Of a stretch of 64,000 nucleotides of DNA, positions 46,631 through 55,736 are shown one piece after another (position 1 is the stretch's first letter; the number at the start of each line of letters is the position of its first letter). This stretch comes from Dyadobacter sp. (GTDB lineage: Bacteria > Bacteroidota > Bacteroidia > Cytophagales > Spirosomataceae). The stretch covers positions 1,827,013 through 1,891,012 of the forward strand of contig NZ_JAGIAS010000001.1 of NCBI RefSeq assembly GCF_017744695.1, in the 5' to 3' direction. The notes under the pieces were generated by a model. That model ran no database searches, was not told the DNA's origin, and worked only from the letters and a program-made list of their open reading frames with translations. The position numbers were made by a program, and so were the translations under genes.

Positions 46631-47521
46631 CTAAGTAAAATTTAGAGGAAGTTGGGCCCCTGGATTTCGATATCTTGTAATGGCTACAATTTCGTAAATT
46701 TCAAAGATGTCAGTGAAGGGTAAAGTGATGGCAGGAAACTTCGATTGATCGGGATGTGTCGAGGCTAGCTCTACCTCACTGGCGGAAATATTAAGATTCT
46801 TTATTTTTCTAACAAAAACGCCTTGTTTGGCTGTTATAATGGCGAGGTGCGCCGTGGAAAGGCCTATACGTCTGTTTTTTGGCTCTATTCGGATGCCAGT
46901 TACAATGTCTCCAATTCTAAGATCGTCCTCGTCATTGGAATTTAGCCCACTATCGTTGACATAAAAGGACCTGTATAACCCGAATTTGACAGATTCCACG
47001 GCCACCGCATGGCGGGCGAAAAGGTCAATTTCCTCTAAGTCGTCCCAAACCTCCGCGTAATAGTCATACCCATAATCACGACTGATGTACATCAAAGGGG
47101 TGGTAATTAAATATCTGTCCACGCCTCCCCGGAACCCCCAGAATTCTGTTGAGTTTTCGCGTTTTATCAATTCAAACCCGGCCGCTGACCAATTGTTGTT
47201 TTTATCTTGATCTGGACCGGCGCTCAATAAAGATTGTTCTCCGCCAGCCAGGGGGGTTCCGTCAGGATTGAAAGGGAGAGAGGTCTGTGAGCTATTTGTC
47301 ATTCCGCCCTTGCCAGTAAGTAGCCAAATGATGTTTAAATCTGGGTACTGTACTGCAATCTTTGCAAGAACTGCTGAGCTTATATTGGAATTCAGTCTAA
47401 TAGACTTGTACAATGCTCCTCTAGATAGGCCTATTTCGTTTTCAACGACATAAGCAGTAATTCCCTTATAGTCAAGGTATTGTGAAAATCTCTCAAACAT
47501 TTCTATAAAATTATTGCGCAA
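46631..47521 (-). CDS. phage repressor: N-terminal HTH plus S24/LexA-like C-terminal domain
   Basis: MFERFSQYLDYKGITAYVVENEIGLSRGALYKSIRLNSNISSAVLAKIAVQYPDLNIIWLLTGKG; C-terminal LRIGDIVTGIRI...ITAKQGVFVRKIKNL...ASTHPDQSKFPAITLPFTDIFEIYEIVAITR. Confidence 0.8.
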   Translation of the reverse strand: MRNNFIEMFERFSQYLDYKGITAYVVENEIGLSRGALYKSIRLNSNISSAVLAKIAVQYPDLNIIWLLTGKGGMTNSSQTSLPFNPDGTPLAGGEQSLLSAGPDQDKNNNWSAAGFELIKRENSTEFWGFRGGVDRYLITTPLMYISRDYGYDYYAEVWDDLEEIDLFARHAVAVESVKFGLYRSFYVNDSGLNSNDEDDLRIGDIVTGIRIEPKNRRIGLSTAHLAIITAKQGVFVRKIKNLNISASEVELASTHPDQSKFPAITLPFTDIFEIYEIVAITRYRNPGAQLPLNFT

Positions 47522-48905: not shown

Positions 48906-49313
48906 ATGGATACAGAATTGACTCCGCGGCAGCAAGCCATTGTGAACGCATACGGAGCCGCATGGGGCAAGCTTCCGGCTGTAACCCGTGACGGTTGGGC
49001 AATGATATGTGAGTTCGGGCCTAACGTGAGTTTGAATTGGGCGTCCTATGGATTTTCAGAGCAGCAGGTCCAAATCAAGAAAGAAGGACGTGACGTTTAT
49101 TGGCGACCGGTCGGGTTGGTGGGGATTGAGGATAACAATGGATGGTACCGATTTGATAAAGACAAGCCATTGAAGAACCAGGAAGTCCACGCAATGCAAG
49201 CAGGGAAACACTACGTCGGGAAGATTACCGTTTTTGACCCGAAAAACGATTATTATGAGCGGACCTATTCGCACTGGCGGCCGCTTGAAGAGATGCCATT
49301 GCCAATTTATTGA
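48906..49313 (+). CDS. phage protein of unknown function
   Basis: 135-aa ORF in a co-directional early cluster. Confidence 0.6.
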   Translation: MDTELTPRQQAIVNAYGAAWGKLPAVTRDGWAMICEFGPNVSLNWASYGFSEQQVQIKKEGRDVYWRPVGLVGIEDNNGWYRFDKDKPLKNQEVHAMQAGKHYVGKITVFDPKNDYYERTYSHWRPLEEMPLPIY

Positions 49314-49790: not shown

Positions 49791-50021
49791 ATGCTTATAT
49801 CTCAGTTACCTCCCGGTTTACGGGAGCTGGCGCAGCGTCGGCAAATCGATTACCCAATGCCCAATCCGAAAGGGCCAATATCACACCTCGGTTCCGCGTT
49901 CGTGTGGGACTGGACGCCAGAAGGTTTTGATTTTTGGAGTAATGTAGTCCAGGGCAACTATTCAGTTTACTACGGGTGCAAAGTCACGAATTTGAAACTG
50001 AAAATAGCCGTAACGCCATGA
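49791..50021 (+). CDS. small phage protein of unknown function
   Basis: 76-aa ORF; ATGA overlap with the next gene. Confidence 0.5.
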   Translation: MLISQLPPGLRELAQRRQIDYPMPNPKGPISHLGSAFVWDWTPEGFDFWSNVVQGNYSVYYGCKVTNLKLKIAVTP

Positions 50022-50635
50022 AACCATTCTATCCTTTACCTCAGGAAATTCCCTTACTCTTAGAGGAAGTACAGCGGGCTCTGGTTCGGCCTCTCAGACA
50101 GCAGCCCAGGGGCATAATCAAGCAGGTGCTTCAAAACGGAAATCGGAAGGATATTTATCTACTTGTTGATGCCGGCAACTGGGATAACAACGTTTGTGAA
50201 AGTACACCCTTCGATCAACCCGGGACGATCCTGTGGTGCAGGGAAACGTTCTCGGGTTTCAAACAAATAGGTGGCCGCTACGTCCGGGAGAAACTTCACT
50301 TTAAGGCTACCGAACCTGAATTGCCGGGCGCCCGTTGGCTATTGCCTGTAACGATGCCGATATATGTAAGCCGGCTATGGCTTGAAGTGTTAGAGCTTAA
50401 AGTGTGCAGGTTAATGGATCTGACACATGAAGAAATGTATGAAACCGGGGTTCGTATAGCTGATTCTTACAGTCGAGGGATGGCCACGGACGAAGGCAGT
50501 GTCGAGGCTTTCAATTGCGGCGACGGCATCCGGCGGGTTTTCTATGAGATTTATGACGAGAGGTTTGGAAAGCGGGAAATATCAAATCCCTGGATCTGGT
50601 ATGCCGCAGTCAAGAAGGTAGACTCTCCCGTTTAG
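50018..50635 (+). CDS. ASCH-like phage protein
   Basis: GTILWCRETFSGF...TMPIYVSRLWLEVLELKVCRLMDLTHEEMYETGV...NPWIWYAAVKKV matches the layout of phage ASCH-domain proteins (WVRET / MPRWASRITLEV..VRVERLQDI / NPWVWV). Confidence 0.7.
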   Translation: MKPFYPLPQEIPLLLEEVQRALVRPLRQQPRGIIKQVLQNGNRKDIYLLVDAGNWDNNVCESTPFDQPGTILWCRETFSGFKQIGGRYVREKLHFKATEPELPGARWLLPVTMPIYVSRLWLEVLELKVCRLMDLTHEEMYETGVRIADSYSRGMATDEGSVEAFNCGDGIRRVFYEIYDERFGKREISNPWIWYAAVKKVDSPV

Positions 50636-50679: not shown

Positions 50680-53172
50680 ATGGATTTATTAGACATTGCC
50701 ATAGGCAAACACCGGAATACAAAGACGTGGCAGAACAAACAAATGAGCGTCGAGACTTTGGCGAAAATGTGCTCAGAGCCGCAGGTTACCAATGAAACCT
50801 TCGCAGAATACCTTAAAATGCCCACCGGCGAACAAGATCGAATCAAGGATGTGGGCGGGTTTTTCGGTGGGTATCTGCCCAACGGTGTCCGAAAGAACAC
50901 AAACGTTCTTCACAGGTCTGTTATTACGATCGATTTGGATTTTGCAAAGCTGGGATTCTCCGAGGATTATGAGATGCTATTCGGGTACGACGCCATAATC
51001 TACTCAACGCGTAAGCATTCAGCAGAAAAACCCCGACTTAGGCTAATACTAATTCCTGACCGAGAACTCCGTCCAGACGAATACGAGCCCGTGGCACGTA
51101 AAACCGGAGAAATGTTTGGTATTGAGCAGTGTGACCATACTTCTTTCAGGGTTACCCAGTTCATGCACTTGCCCTCGGTCAGTAAAGATATGGTCGGTGA
51201 ATTTATTTTTAAACGGATCGAGGGGCCCCGGATATGCGTCGACGAGGTTAAAGGGATGTATCGGAACTGGGAAGACCAAAGCGAGTGGCCTCGAACAAGC
51301 AGGGAAACCAAACAGATCAGGGACGCTGCGTTCAGAAAGCAAACACAGGCAGACCCGCGGGAGAAAGGTGGTCTGATTGGTCTCTTTTGCCAGGCATATC
51401 CGACTGTATCGGACGTAATTTACGAATACCTACCTAACGTATACGAAGAAACTGATATGTCGGGAAGATGGACCTATAAGGCTGGCAGTGGGCATGCCGG
51501 AGCTGTTGAATATACAGATGGGCTCTTCCTTTACAGTAACCATATGACGGACCCCGCGTATAGTCGGCTATGTAACGTCGTCGATTTGGTTCGAATTCAC
51601 CTGTACGAGCCAATGGATGCTAATGTGGCCGAAGATACCCCGATTAATAAAAAGCCTTCTTTCATGGCAATGCTGGATTTGATCAGGAACGATCCAAAGG
51701 TGAAGGCGTTAAATGCCGCGGCAAAGTTTGCGGAGGCTGGGGTTGATTTCGCGGATATACCTGGTGGTAAGAAGGAATTGGACTGGGTTTCCAAAGCAGA
51801 ATTCGATACCAAAGGTAGATTTATCACTTCGCCCCATAACATCGAGCTCATTCTTAGGTCAGATCCAGCATTGAAGGGGCGTTTTAAATTCAACGAGTTT
51901 TCAGAACACATCAATATAGAAGGCCCCGTCCCTTGGGACTCAGTGCCTGGGATCCGCCAAATAGCTGATAATGATGTTAAGGGGCTTCGGAACTATTTGG
52001 GGAAAAACCCTTACAATATTAAGCGAAGCCCCATAATTGATGATACCTATCCGTTGATAGCAAAAGAGAATCAGTTTCACCCGATCAGAGAGTATTTATC
52101 AGGCCTGAAATGGGACGGCGTTCCACGAGTAGACACGCTACTAACCGACTACTTAGGCGCCGAAGATACCCCTCTCGCACGCGCATTCATACGTAAAACG
52201 TTGTGCGCAGCGGTGACGAGGGTGTTCCGGCCAGGGGCGAAATTTGACTACATTTTGACTTTAATAAGTACGGAAGGGACCAAGAAAAGTACATTAGCAA
52301 AATCATTAGGAAAGGAATGGTTCTCTGAGACCTTTAATTTTTCAATGCTACATGGGGGTAACGGAGTTCGGGCGCAAGAACAAGTGCGAGGTGTTTGGAT
52401 CATTGAAATTCCGGAGATGTCAGGGCTTAACAGAGCTGAGGTTGAGGCTGCAAAAAGTTTCATTACGACGACTGTGGATCGATATCGGGTGACGCGAGGG
52501 GAGCACCAGTCCTCATTCAAAAGACAGTGCGTATTTATAGGGTCGTCAAATAATGAAGAATTCTTATCGAGCCAAACGGGTAACAGAAGGTTTTGGCCTG
52601 TTGTCGTATTCGTAAATCCGCCAAAGAAAATTATCGAGGGTGAGTTTCTCGACCCATATGAAGTTGACCAAATTTGGGCAGAAGCTTTCGTACTGCATAA
52701 AACGGAGCTGCTGTATTTAACTCCGGAATTGGAGGCCTTAGCACGAGAAACTCAGGCTGATCATACTGTATCAGATGAGCGCCAAGGGCTAATTCACAGG
52801 TTTTTAGAAATGAAGTTACCGGACGGTTGGGATTCTATGGAGCCGGTCCAGCGAAAAATCTATTTCGAATACGGGGATTCGTCAAAACCAGGACTCACCA
52901 CGAGAACCCGAGTTTGCGCCGCTGAAATATGGGTGGAAGCCCTTGGGGGTTCGACAAAAGACATGTCGTCCCAGAACACCCGATTTATACACAACATAAT
53001 GCGAAAGATGCCAGGGTGGAAGCCCTATAAATCAAAGACTGAATTTAAAGTCTACGGGAACCAAAGAGCATATCGGCGTGTGGATTCTGAAAACCCGACC
53101 GGCGGAACCGCGAGCGAAGTGAGCATACACGGGACGGCCAGGAAATCATTGGAAGTTTTTGAAAATAATTAA
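50680..53172 (+). CDS. primase (AEP-like N-terminal region) fused to VapE-type helicase
   Basis: HRSVITIDLDFA (DxD-like) and STRKHSAEKPRLRLIL (sxH-like); FHPIREYLSGLKWDGVPRVDTLLTDYLGAEDTPLARAFIRKTL; GAKFDYILTLISTEGTKKSTLAKSLG. Confidence 0.85.
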   Translation: MDLLDIAIGKHRNTKTWQNKQMSVETLAKMCSEPQVTNETFAEYLKMPTGEQDRIKDVGGFFGGYLPNGVRKNTNVLHRSVITIDLDFAKLGFSEDYEMLFGYDAIIYSTRKHSAEKPRLRLILIPDRELRPDEYEPVARKTGEMFGIEQCDHTSFRVTQFMHLPSVSKDMVGEFIFKRIEGPRICVDEVKGMYRNWEDQSEWPRTSRETKQIRDAAFRKQTQADPREKGGLIGLFCQAYPTVSDVIYEYLPNVYEETDMSGRWTYKAGSGHAGAVEYTDGLFLYSNHMTDPAYSRLCNVVDLVRIHLYEPMDANVAEDTPINKKPSFMAMLDLIRNDPKVKALNAAAKFAEAGVDFADIPGGKKELDWVSKAEFDTKGRFITSPHNIELILRSDPALKGRFKFNEFSEHINIEGPVPWDSVPGIRQIADNDVKGLRNYLGKNPYNIKRSPIIDDTYPLIAKENQFHPIREYLSGLKWDGVPRVDTLLTDYLGAEDTPLARAFIRKTLCAAVTRVFRPGAKFDYILTLISTEGTKKSTLAKSLGKEWFSETFNFSMLHGGNGVRAQEQVRGVWIIEIPEMSGLNRAEVEAAKSFITTTVDRYRVTRGEHQSSFKRQCVFIGSSNNEEFLSSQTGNRRFWPVVVFVNPPKKIIEGEFLDPYEVDQIWAEAFVLHKTELLYLTPELEALARETQADHTVSDERQGLIHRFLEMKLPDGWDSMEPVQRKIYFEYGDSSKPGLTTRTRVCAAEIWVEALGGSTKDMSSQNTRFIHNIMRKMPGWKPYKSKTEFKVYGNQRAYRRVDSENPTGGTASEVSIHGTARKSLEVFENN

Positions 53173-53204
53173 CTATTTGAAATTCAAATAGTTAATTATT
53201 TTCA
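53160..53204. repeat. perfect 22-bp-arm palindrome overlapping the 3' end of the VapE gene
   Basis: TGAAAATAATTAACTATTTGAA A TTCAAATAGTTAATTATTTTCA. Confidence 0.95.
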
Positions 53205-53213
53205 CTACTTATA

Positions 53214-53325
53214 CTACCGTTAATTATATAATAACATAATATTTAAATAGGGGTAGATTATTTATATAGAGTATAAATAACTACTGCCTATGGAGAAAAT
53301 ATGGAAATATGGAAATTAACGGTAG
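53214..53325. repeat. nested dyad-symmetric inverted repeats
   Basis: CTACCGTTAATT (53214-53225) / AATTAACGGTAG (53314-53325) enclosing TTATTTATA (53258-53266) TAGAG TATAAATAA (53272-53280). Confidence 0.9.
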
Positions 53326-53457
53326 CGAAGTGCATAACGGGTAGTATCCACCTTATTTTTTAGTAAAATGGAAAATCAATTTTTTGATAATCAAAGGCAT
53401 AACTATTAACCTTGCTTAATTTAGATCAATTACCAGTTTTTGAGATCACGGAAAATT

Positions 53458-53542: not shown

Positions 53543-54295
53543 ATGAAAAAAGAACAATTCGGAAATCTCTTTTTAGGCCAAAGAGTATGGGTTATTAACA
53601 AACAGCTACCGGGGACAATTTTTGCCTTGCATGACGGGTATAAAGCTCCAGAAGTGGACATTATGTTGGACCCACACAGAATTTTCAGGAACGGTAAACG
53701 CATGTATCTTGCGTCACCTAGAAATCTTAACGCCTCACCTTATATTGAAGGGCAGACTATTCGAGTGGACGATAAATATGTCGGCATGATTACTAAAATC
53801 GAGCCGTCTGTCAATGGCCGATTTTGGTACACATTAAAAACATTTGGAGATACTAAGGATGAGGAAAGATCATACCCCAGCCACGAATGTAATATTGAGG
53901 CCGTTACAAAGCCGGTCTTTAACATTACGGACAGGCCCCTCACGAATTATCCACCGCCTACGCCCAATTGGGAGTCAAAATTAACTCTTAAAAGGGGAGG
54001 TAGTCCAGAAGGATCTATCCCAAACCATAAACTGATTTTGCAAAATGACTCAAAATTGGCAGGTAATATCGCATTTAACCGTCTGACTCACAACGTGGAT
54101 GTTATTGGGGAGCTTCCTTGGAGGCGTGAACCTGAGTACAAAGCATGGAACGATAGTGACGCGTCATGTCTGAGGCATTACCTCGGAGTCAATTATGACA
54201 TTTCTAGCCGGGGATTAGAAATCGCTTTTTCTCTCGCTACTCAAGAGTACAAATTTCACCCGGTGAATGATGCAATTCAATTCGAACCGATTTAA
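53543..54295 (+). CDS. protein with a stand-alone VapE pre-ATPase-like domain
   Basis: C-terminal HKLILQNDSKLAGNIAFNRLTHNVDVIGELPWRREPEYKAWNDSDASCLRHYLGVNYDISSRGLEIAFSLATQEYKFHPVNDAI aligns by eye with VapE residues HNIELILRSDPALKGRFKFNEFSEHINIEGPVPWDS...FHPIREYL; no ATPase follows. Confidence 0.75.
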   Translation: MKKEQFGNLFLGQRVWVINKQLPGTIFALHDGYKAPEVDIMLDPHRIFRNGKRMYLASPRNLNASPYIEGQTIRVDDKYVGMITKIEPSVNGRFWYTLKTFGDTKDEERSYPSHECNIEAVTKPVFNITDRPLTNYPPPTPNWESKLTLKRGGSPEGSIPNHKLILQNDSKLAGNIAFNRLTHNVDVIGELPWRREPEYKAWNDSDASCLRHYLGVNYDISSRGLEIAFSLATQEYKFHPVNDAIQFEPI

Positions 54296-54300
54296 AAATA

Positions 54301-54329
54301 AAACGGGAGCCTCGCAGCTCCCGTTTTTA
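54301..54329. terminator. intrinsic terminator between convergent genes
   Basis: AAACGGGAGC CTCGCA GCTCCCGTTT TTA. Confidence 0.85.
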
Positions 54330-54342
54330 GTTACCTATCGTT

Positions 54343-54777
54343 TCAAAACTTTACTCCGAGCTGGTCGAAACAATCCTTTATGATGTGTAATAGCTCTTCT
54401 TCGGTCGGTAACCCTTCAACCTGTGGGCCTGCCGCGACGGCCGTCTTCGGCACTGGCGTCACTTTACGAATGCTTGCCGGATCTCCCTCGTAAGTGAAAA
54501 AGCGCGCCTCATGCCGCGGAAGGGTTTTAAAAGCAGGATTTTTGAACTTCGCCGCGGCATATTGTCTGAGTTCATCCGAATCGGCGAATGTCTGGCAGAC
54601 GACTTTTACCTGGTTCTCGAAGGTGTTAAAAATTACAAGTATCGTCGGAGACTCGTACGATAAAATAGCCTCGTAGACTGGCAGAGCGGCATTTTTACTG
54701 TTATCAGAAGGTAATTCTTCAAGTTCAGGCCAATGCTTTCGAGTAACTTCGATTGCTAGTACAATAAATTCTTTCAT
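54343..54777 (-). CDS. phage-encoded protein of unknown function (second gene of a minus-strand pair)
   Basis: 144 aa; start overlaps the stop of the upstream gene by 4 nt. Confidence 0.6.
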   Translation of the reverse strand: MKEFIVLAIEVTRKHWPELEELPSDNSKNAALPVYEAILSYESPTILVIFNTFENQVKVVCQTFADSDELRQYAAAKFKNPAFKTLPRHEARFFTYEGDPASIRKVTPVPKTAVAAGPQVEGLPTEEELLHIIKDCFDQLGVKF

Positions 54778-55736
54778 TGTTTAGGGGATTTTCTGATTTT
54801 GGGCGAACCGGTATGTTTTACTTTAGCCAATGGAGGAATTTTGGCACCTTCTGCTTGCTCGGGAAGGGCTTTTACCCGCGACTCCACCGATTGTAGCTGT
54901 TTGATATCCGGAAATTTCTCAGGACCGTTATTCGCTTCCTTCAAAGAAGGTTGAACTTCTGCACCTTTTATAAACAACTCGTGCATGGCCATGATGGATT
55001 TGGCCAGTTGAGATCGATATTCAGGGTCAGCTTTTAATCCATTTCTCGTAATAATGCCTGAGACTTCTGTCTCCACATGGTCGCTGATAAGCTGCTTCTG
55101 GGCGCCCAATATCATCTCCAGATAATCGTTTTTTAATTTATATGATCTCACCTCTTGAGCTACCATTTTGTTATCCAGAACCTTTCTCCAGATGACTGCG
55201 GCCGACCAGCAGATATCGTTTATTAACTTATATGCCATTTTCCCAATTCCAAGAACCTTAACCACTAGCCATACGGACCCGGGCTCGCCTCGAAGTATCT
55301 GAATCGTGCCGTCGACTTGAGGGTGGCGCAAAGGAAGAGTGAACGCTATTTTGAAGGCGCTCGTGTACTTTTCAAGATCTTGAAAGCCGTTGCCATCAGG
55401 TAGTCGTATCCGCAAGCTATCTTCGTCAAGGGGAGGAAAGGTTCTAGATATGAAGTTGCTTACAGCAACGAGAGCTTCTCGCAATTCGATTGACCTGGTT
55501 AAAATGTACTTCATAGTCTCAGAATCGGCCCCCAATAGGTCGGAGTTAGGATAACTATGAAGAAATATTGAAAAGTCGCCAATTGTTTTTGACTCGATTC
55601 CAAGTCGACGAAGTTCTTCCAAGATAATTCGATACCTGGAAAGTCCCCTGACCTCTGACGGGTTATCCTCGTTGTTGAATTTTAATGGGTATGTGATTGC
55701 TTCTGTCAGCAATGATTGTATTTCGTCAAGATTCAT
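54774..55736 (-). CDS. phage-encoded protein of unknown function (first gene of a minus-strand pair)
   Basis: 320 aa, no family recognised. Confidence 0.6.
   Translation of the reverse strand: MNLDEIQSLLTEAITYPLKFNNEDNPSEVRGLSRYRIILEELRRLGIESKTIGDFSIFLHSYPNSDLLGADSETMKYILTRSIELREALVAVSNFISRTFPPLDEDSLRIRLPDGNGFQDLEKYTSAFKIAFTLPLRHPQVDGTIQILRGEPGSVWLVVKVLGIGKMAYKLINDICWSAAVIWRKVLDNKMVAQEVRSYKLKNDYLEMILGAQKQLISDHVETEVSGIITRNGLKADPEYRSQLAKSIMAMHELFIKGAEVQPSLKEANNGPEKFPDIKQLQSVESRVKALPEQAEGAKIPPLAKVKHTGSPKIRKSPKQ

Follow-up and report, generated by a model that had tools for sequence, protein, structure and literature searches.

A stand-alone VapE pre-ATPase domain encoded next to the primase-helicase gene and predicted replication origin of a Dyadobacter prophage

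What role can a phage protein have that carries the domain preceding the ATPase of VapE-type primase-helicases, lacks the ATPase itself, and is encoded right after a complete primase-helicase? This question is raised by a locus in the window, a stretch of 64,000 nucleotides from a Dyadobacter sp. contig, the right part of which holds the left arm of a prophage, extending from a repressor-like gene to the terminase. VapE/Rep helicases are self-loading initiators that replicate many temperate phages as well as virulence-carrying satellites such as SaPIs, and a natural stand-alone VapE/Rep N-terminal domain would make ring assembly at the origin directly accessible to study. The genes framing the question are the following, with the names of the repressor-like gene, the HNH-like gene and the terminase having been read from translations and not from family searches.

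46631-47521, minus strand: repressor-like gene
from 47649, plus strand: early rightward genes
50680-53172, plus strand: primase-helicase (VapE/phrog_256), 830 aa (PF05272, E=4e-63; phrog_256, E=4e-261)
51769-52113, plus strand: pre-ATPase domain inside VapE, residues 364-478, paralogous to that of the short protein (profile match and alignment)
53543-54295, plus strand: gene of the short protein, 250 aa, an intact open reading frame encoding an N-terminal region and the stand-alone VapE pre-ATPase domain
53543-53932, plus strand: N-terminal region, residues 1-130
53957-54292, plus strand: stand-alone VapE/Rep N-terminal (pre-ATPase) domain, residues 139-250 (homology, fold and dN/dS)
54300-54327, no strand assigned: terminator-like hairpin of 12 pairs, 6 of them GC, between the short gene and convergent minus-strand genes
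about 57 kb: HNH-like gene
59507: terminase

The original prediction, made by eye, that the C-terminal part of the short protein corresponds to the segment preceding the VapE ATPase was borne out by sequence and by fold. An alignment of 106 columns pairs residues 142-245 with VapE residues 368-473 (32% identity; E=3e-13, single comparison), the homologous spans being approximately 139-250 in the short protein and 364-478 in VapE. Among the PHROG helicase profiles, phrog_256 (1.3e-21) and phrog_1313 (9.8e-14) match the short protein only from residue ~118 or 140 to 245, and a profile of the domain found one match among PDB sequences, residues 15-128 of a chain of 7PDS described as 'Similar to D. 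nodosus vapE' (E=7e-9). The AlphaFold model of the short protein, built on 26 sequences, has pLDDT values mostly between 86 and 97 across the C-terminal domain, and a PDB structure search with this model returned the six chains of 7PDS as the only matches with E<0.001 (E=6e-7), while the corresponding matches in BFVD were exclusively VapE-like, primase or helicase proteins. The entry 7PDS is a PriRep1-dsDNA structure, which we take to be the SaPI helicase of Qiao et al. (2022); the model of the neighbouring VapE matches it as well (E=2e-32). Furthermore, the strongly conserved columns ahead of the ATPase border are retained in the short protein (W143, N161, D169, G174, P192, W193, D204, D206, Y213 and Y218).

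The protein ends where the motor would begin. Since searches against Pfam, NCBIfam and PADLOC gave no match, it is devoid of a P-loop ATPase, and since the Pfam VapE ATPase of the neighbour begins at residue 473, it stops at the motor border, in agreement with the predicted absence of Walker motifs. Thus, the AAA+/SF3 motor (PF05272) is missing, as judged from the Pfam search and the domain border, and so is the C-terminal (origin-binding/Tail) domain, as judged from the model and from the end of the protein at residue 250. The P-loop ATPase of DnaC/DnaI-type AAA+ loaders was found neither by Pfam nor by the PDB structure search, and PADLOC yielded no match to a known anti-phage defense family at E<=1. 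A remnant of the ATPase past the stop codon was rejected in view of the hairpin, which lies directly 3' of the stop and was called on the minus strand with a T-rich tail, and of the convergent conserved genes that follow. These are two overlapping minus-strand genes (54343-55736, 144 and 320 aa), retained at 79% and 88% in the D. soli prophage described below; they have no convincing family match in Pfam, PHROGs, NCBIfam or PADLOC and are a candidate cargo or immunity pair. The short gene is the last of the early rightward group, ahead of the hairpin, and the Bacteroidota promoter TTTG-N-TAnnTTTG does not occur near it.

The N-terminal region has no match in Pfam, PHROG, NCBIfam or PADLOC, so that the description of the first ~130 residues as unrecognized holds. 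Residues 1-62 are basic (pI ~10), and pLDDT is below 50 for residues 1-64; residues ~72-112 are modelled as a small beta-barrel with moderate confidence (pLDDT ~70 for 70-110). Structure searches with the model of this region gave weak Tudor/SH3-like matches (E>0.1), and shuffle tests gave no support for tandem SH3 repeats (p=0.77 and 0.27). It is worth noting that a 135-aa protein encoded upstream (48906-49313, plus strand) has weak Tudor-like profile matches itself and resembles, at its C-terminal end, the second half of the N-terminal region; this kinship is marginal (p=0.046) and was not used.

A near relative, Dyadobacter soli DSM 25329, carries a prophage (viral contig IMGVR_UViG_2619619010_000002) with a syntenic ortholog of the short gene that is 77% identical, and the order VapE, gap, short gene and two minus-strand genes is common to both phages. 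Comparing the window with D. soli by the Nei-Gojobori method, we obtained a dN/dS of 0.13 for the short gene at a dS of ~1.1, close to the 0.104 of VapE, with both halves constrained (0.114 for the N-terminal and 0.153 for the C-terminal half). The two copies differ by an indel in whole codons and show neither a stop nor a frameshift over 250 codons. On these sequence data, the short gene is a real, constrained gene, and the possibility that it represents a decayed fragment, which the original prediction had named as a potential refutation, did not materialize.

The short gene belongs to a block of ~9 kb (48.1-57.2 kb) that shares ~84% nucleotide identity with D. soli (L007-L009) over most of its length, although the two phages differ widely in their repressors (33% amino acid identity) and large terminases (51%); therefore, the short gene travels with the replication module. 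Within the module, synonymous divergence between the window and D. soli varies from ~0.14 to more than 2, which indicates a recombination patchwork. This also explains why the VapE pre-ATPase domain is 94% identical at the nucleotide level between the two phages: special constraint on this domain was considered and rejected, as dS is low there too (0.26, compared to 1.1 in the primase part). The gene just upstream of VapE (49976-50635, plus strand) is 91% identical in D. soli with a dN/dS of 0.058; its product matches phrog_874, a family of unknown function (E=6.5e-13), and it may be considered a further conserved partner within the replication block.

The short form is not a general companion of primase-VapE genes. 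Among 48 genomes of the genus, it was found in two prophages only, those of the window and of D. soli, and the Dyadobacter genomes G015 and G027 encode VapE proteins without it. No further short forms came up in 391 genomes at the order level, in 396 at the phylum level, or in viral contigs, phages, plasmids and, in one scan, genome contigs. All 28 viral-contig loci with the domain, except for the D. soli copy, run into the WDG...ATPase region, and the same extension into the ATPase was seen in all of the 30-odd other domain-carrying loci whose open reading frames were read. In phage records, the domain occurs at exactly one place per record (181 of 181); nearly all matches listed lie inside genes named primase, helicase or VirE/VapE, and those hypothetical genes that were inspected are full-length. 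Searches with the N-terminal region retrieved only the D. soli copy and one marginal partial match (E=0.003) in an open frame of 621 aa. The short form is thus, within the sequences searched, very rare and specific to one lineage.

With respect to descent, the short-form domains constitute a well-supported pair of their own in the tree, on a long stem (1.5-1.7 changes per column), and the domain shares ~33% identity with its counterpart in the own VapE, compared to 37-42% with the VapEs of other phages. In AU tests, a sister relation to the own VapE was weakly rejected (p=0.043), while a clade with the wider Dyadobacter VapE group was not (p=0.32). The tree largely lacks resolution between domain transfer and in-place duplication; an old divergence or an import from another VapE seems likelier than a fresh in-place duplication.

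Between the VapE gene and the short gene lies a second conserved element, with the following features.

53199-53350, no strand: predicted replication origin, an AT-rich core with flanking inverted iteron-like repeats (D. soli identity and family arrays)
53214-53222, minus strand: iteron-like copy CTACCGTTA in reverse orientation (CTGCCGTTA in D. soli)
53317-53325, plus strand: iteron-like copy TAACGGTAG (TAACGGCAG in D. soli, altered jointly with the left copy)
53335-53344, plus strand: iteron-like copy TAACGGGTAG

Positions 53214-53350 are 87.6% identical to D. soli, compared to 63-69% in the intergenic DNA on either side, and the element is bounded by perfect 12-nt inverted arms (53214-53225 and 53314-53325) that are altered together in D. 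soli, from CTACCG/CGGTAG to CTGCCG/CGGCAG. The array is thin in both phages, consisting of three TAACGG(G)TAG copies, of which the inverted one lies to the left and the two direct ones to the right of the AT-rich core, and repeat enrichment in the gap had a permutation p of 0.007 in the window and of 0.31 in D. soli. In most VapE loci, the gap has an AT-rich core surrounded by short direct and inverted repeats, as exemplified by GTGTCAACA, GGTATCCAT, TGTTACATT and GGACAGCAA; enrichment reached the permutation floor (p=0.003) in 21 of 31 VapE loci, which include a few close relatives of each other, and in none of 31 coding controls. These dense iteron-like arrays, within the 300 bp downstream of the VapE/phrog_256 genes, were noted at L010, L011, L020-L023, L026, L032-L034, L036, L040-L047, L049 and L051. 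In PICIs, the origin is located immediately 3' of rep, with an AT-rich region between two sets of iterons (PMC6092414), and the element described here is likewise situated immediately 3' of the primase-helicase gene, which ends at 53172. We therefore read the gene order as primase-helicase, predicted origin and short protein, with 53199-53350 as a predicted origin of phage replication; judging from these repeats, the PICI-type layout appears to be common in full phages, so that the origins of VapE phages become predictable and testable.

When folded as RNA, the gap forms a hairpin of 112 nt (z=-5.2) with one co-changed pair and two wobble-keeping changes relative to D. soli, and an Rfam search gave no match above its thresholds. 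Since other loci carry inverted iterons at this place, the gap was read as DNA repeats of an origin, and a structured RNA was set aside. Furthermore, a perfect 22-nt inverted repeat with a 1-nt spacer spans the VapE stop codon (53160-53204); it is not conserved in D. soli.

The earlier functional ideas for the short protein, namely a loader, an origin-recruitment factor or a brake, are reasonable and are put in context by the predicted iteron origin just 5' of the gene, and it is plausible that the protein assists or restrains the initiation of phage DNA replication. In its broad form, the proposal that the short protein is a dedicated trans-acting VapE/Rep subunit at an iteron origin, which either loads the helicase or poisons the rings of rival VapE phages, has in our judgment a little short of an even chance. 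To our knowledge, no protein has been described that couples a stand-alone ring domain to a new N-terminal module. The narrower reading, in which the short protein serves the VapE of its own phage as an accessory at the predicted origin, is the one that we favor, if tentatively and at less than even chance, with help in assembly ranked slightly ahead of a brake on the own VapE. The short protein, a fusion of a new N-terminal region and the N-terminal (ring) domain of a VapE/Rep-type primase-helicase without the remainder of that enzyme, would then act as an accessory replication protein: the ring domain would dock on the VapE hexamer of the same phage at its N-terminal ring, or become part of that ring, the N-terminal region would contact DNA or another replisome protein, and the site or timing of VapE assembly at the origin might be set in this way. 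The homology and fold of the domain, purifying selection, and the place right after the primase-helicase gene and the predicted origin support this reading, and extra help in origin recognition makes sense given only three iteron-like sites compared to the dense arrays of most relatives.

What is known about the domain ahead of the motor in related SF3 primase-helicases is informative in this regard. The NrS-1 Head forms a hexameric ring with a positively charged channel of ~20 A (PMC7102993), and the D5_N domain of ASFV C962R forms a symmetric ring (21 A; PMC10516667). However, a truncated NrS-1 comprising primase and Head without helicase and Tail neither binds ssDNA nor unwinds DNA, and hexamer assembly requires the Tail (PMC7102993), so that a pre-ATPase domain on its own may be unable to enter a ring. 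The accessory reading is further weakened, as far as sequence comparison goes, by the greater similarity of the domain to VapEs of other phages than to its own, by VapE loci with iteron-poor gaps but no short protein (L035, L038 and L050), and by its confinement to a single carrier lineage.

This similarity pattern, together with the weak rejection of a sister relation to the own VapE, would fit a domain that poisons the VapE/Rep hexamers of competing phages or satellites, resulting in superinfection exclusion at the level of replication; the own VapE would be spared because the two domains have diverged. The short protein would then possibly be a phage-made inhibitor of VapE/Rep replicons, and the phage-interference genes of PICIs do sit at an equivalent position, just after pri-rep-ori (PMC6092414). 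However, the absence of a PADLOC match, the inclusion of the gene in a replication block with which it travels, and the AU result for the Dyadobacter VapEs as a group speak against such interference, which we regard as possible but doubtful.

Truncated Rep forms are known to limit plasmid initiation, and by analogy the short protein could be a negative auto-regulator, a brake on copy number or timing that mixes into or masks the ring of its own VapE. Domain fold and neighborhood fit this as well as they fit the accessory role, and the position of the gene as the last early rightward one before the hairpin is in line with it; the low identity to the own VapE domain counts against it, though, and we consider a regulator of this kind rather unlikely. 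Likewise, the long stem branch and an N-terminal region of no known family would be compatible with a co-opted domain that has a job apart from VapE, e.g., in DNA/RNA binding or as a structural component, and whose location is merely historical. Yet the retention of the strongly conserved VapE-domain columns, the constraint on the C-terminal domain (dN/dS 0.15) and a position that in both phages is beside the predicted origin and VapE render co-option improbable. Finally, while the short protein is truncated relative to all other carriers of the domain, a functionless remnant of a second VapE gene is extremely improbable and is refuted for these two sequences by the dN/dS and the 250 codons open in both copies at this divergence, as well as by the hairpin directly past the stop and the protein's own conserved N-terminal region.

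Several known systems can be compared with this arrangement. The pri-rep-ori module of PICIs likewise has a primase-helicase, an origin directly 3' and then a small gene (PMC6092414), but here the setting is a full prophage, terminase and later genes included, with only three iteron-like copies, and the short gene matches no known defense or interference family. The NrS-1 Head and C962R D5_N also precede the SF3 motor of a primase-helicase and form a ring of their own (PMC7102993, PMC10516667), an equivalence by position only; the structure search matched 7PDS and not these. In the phrog_256 primase-helicases (VapE, PF05272) of Caudoviricetes, to which the VapE encoded next to the short gene belongs, the domain likewise lies just before the ATPase; however, these proteins of ~800 aa combine primase, motor and C-terminal domain, and no stand-alone domain was found among them. 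The direct homolog is SaPI Rep1/PriRep (7PDS), whose N-terminal domain shows homology in sequence (E=7e-9) as well as in fold (E=6e-7) and whose rep gene is followed by an iteron origin. Rep1 continues into the AAA+ motor and a C-terminal domain; both are absent from the short protein, which instead carries an N-terminal region of its own.
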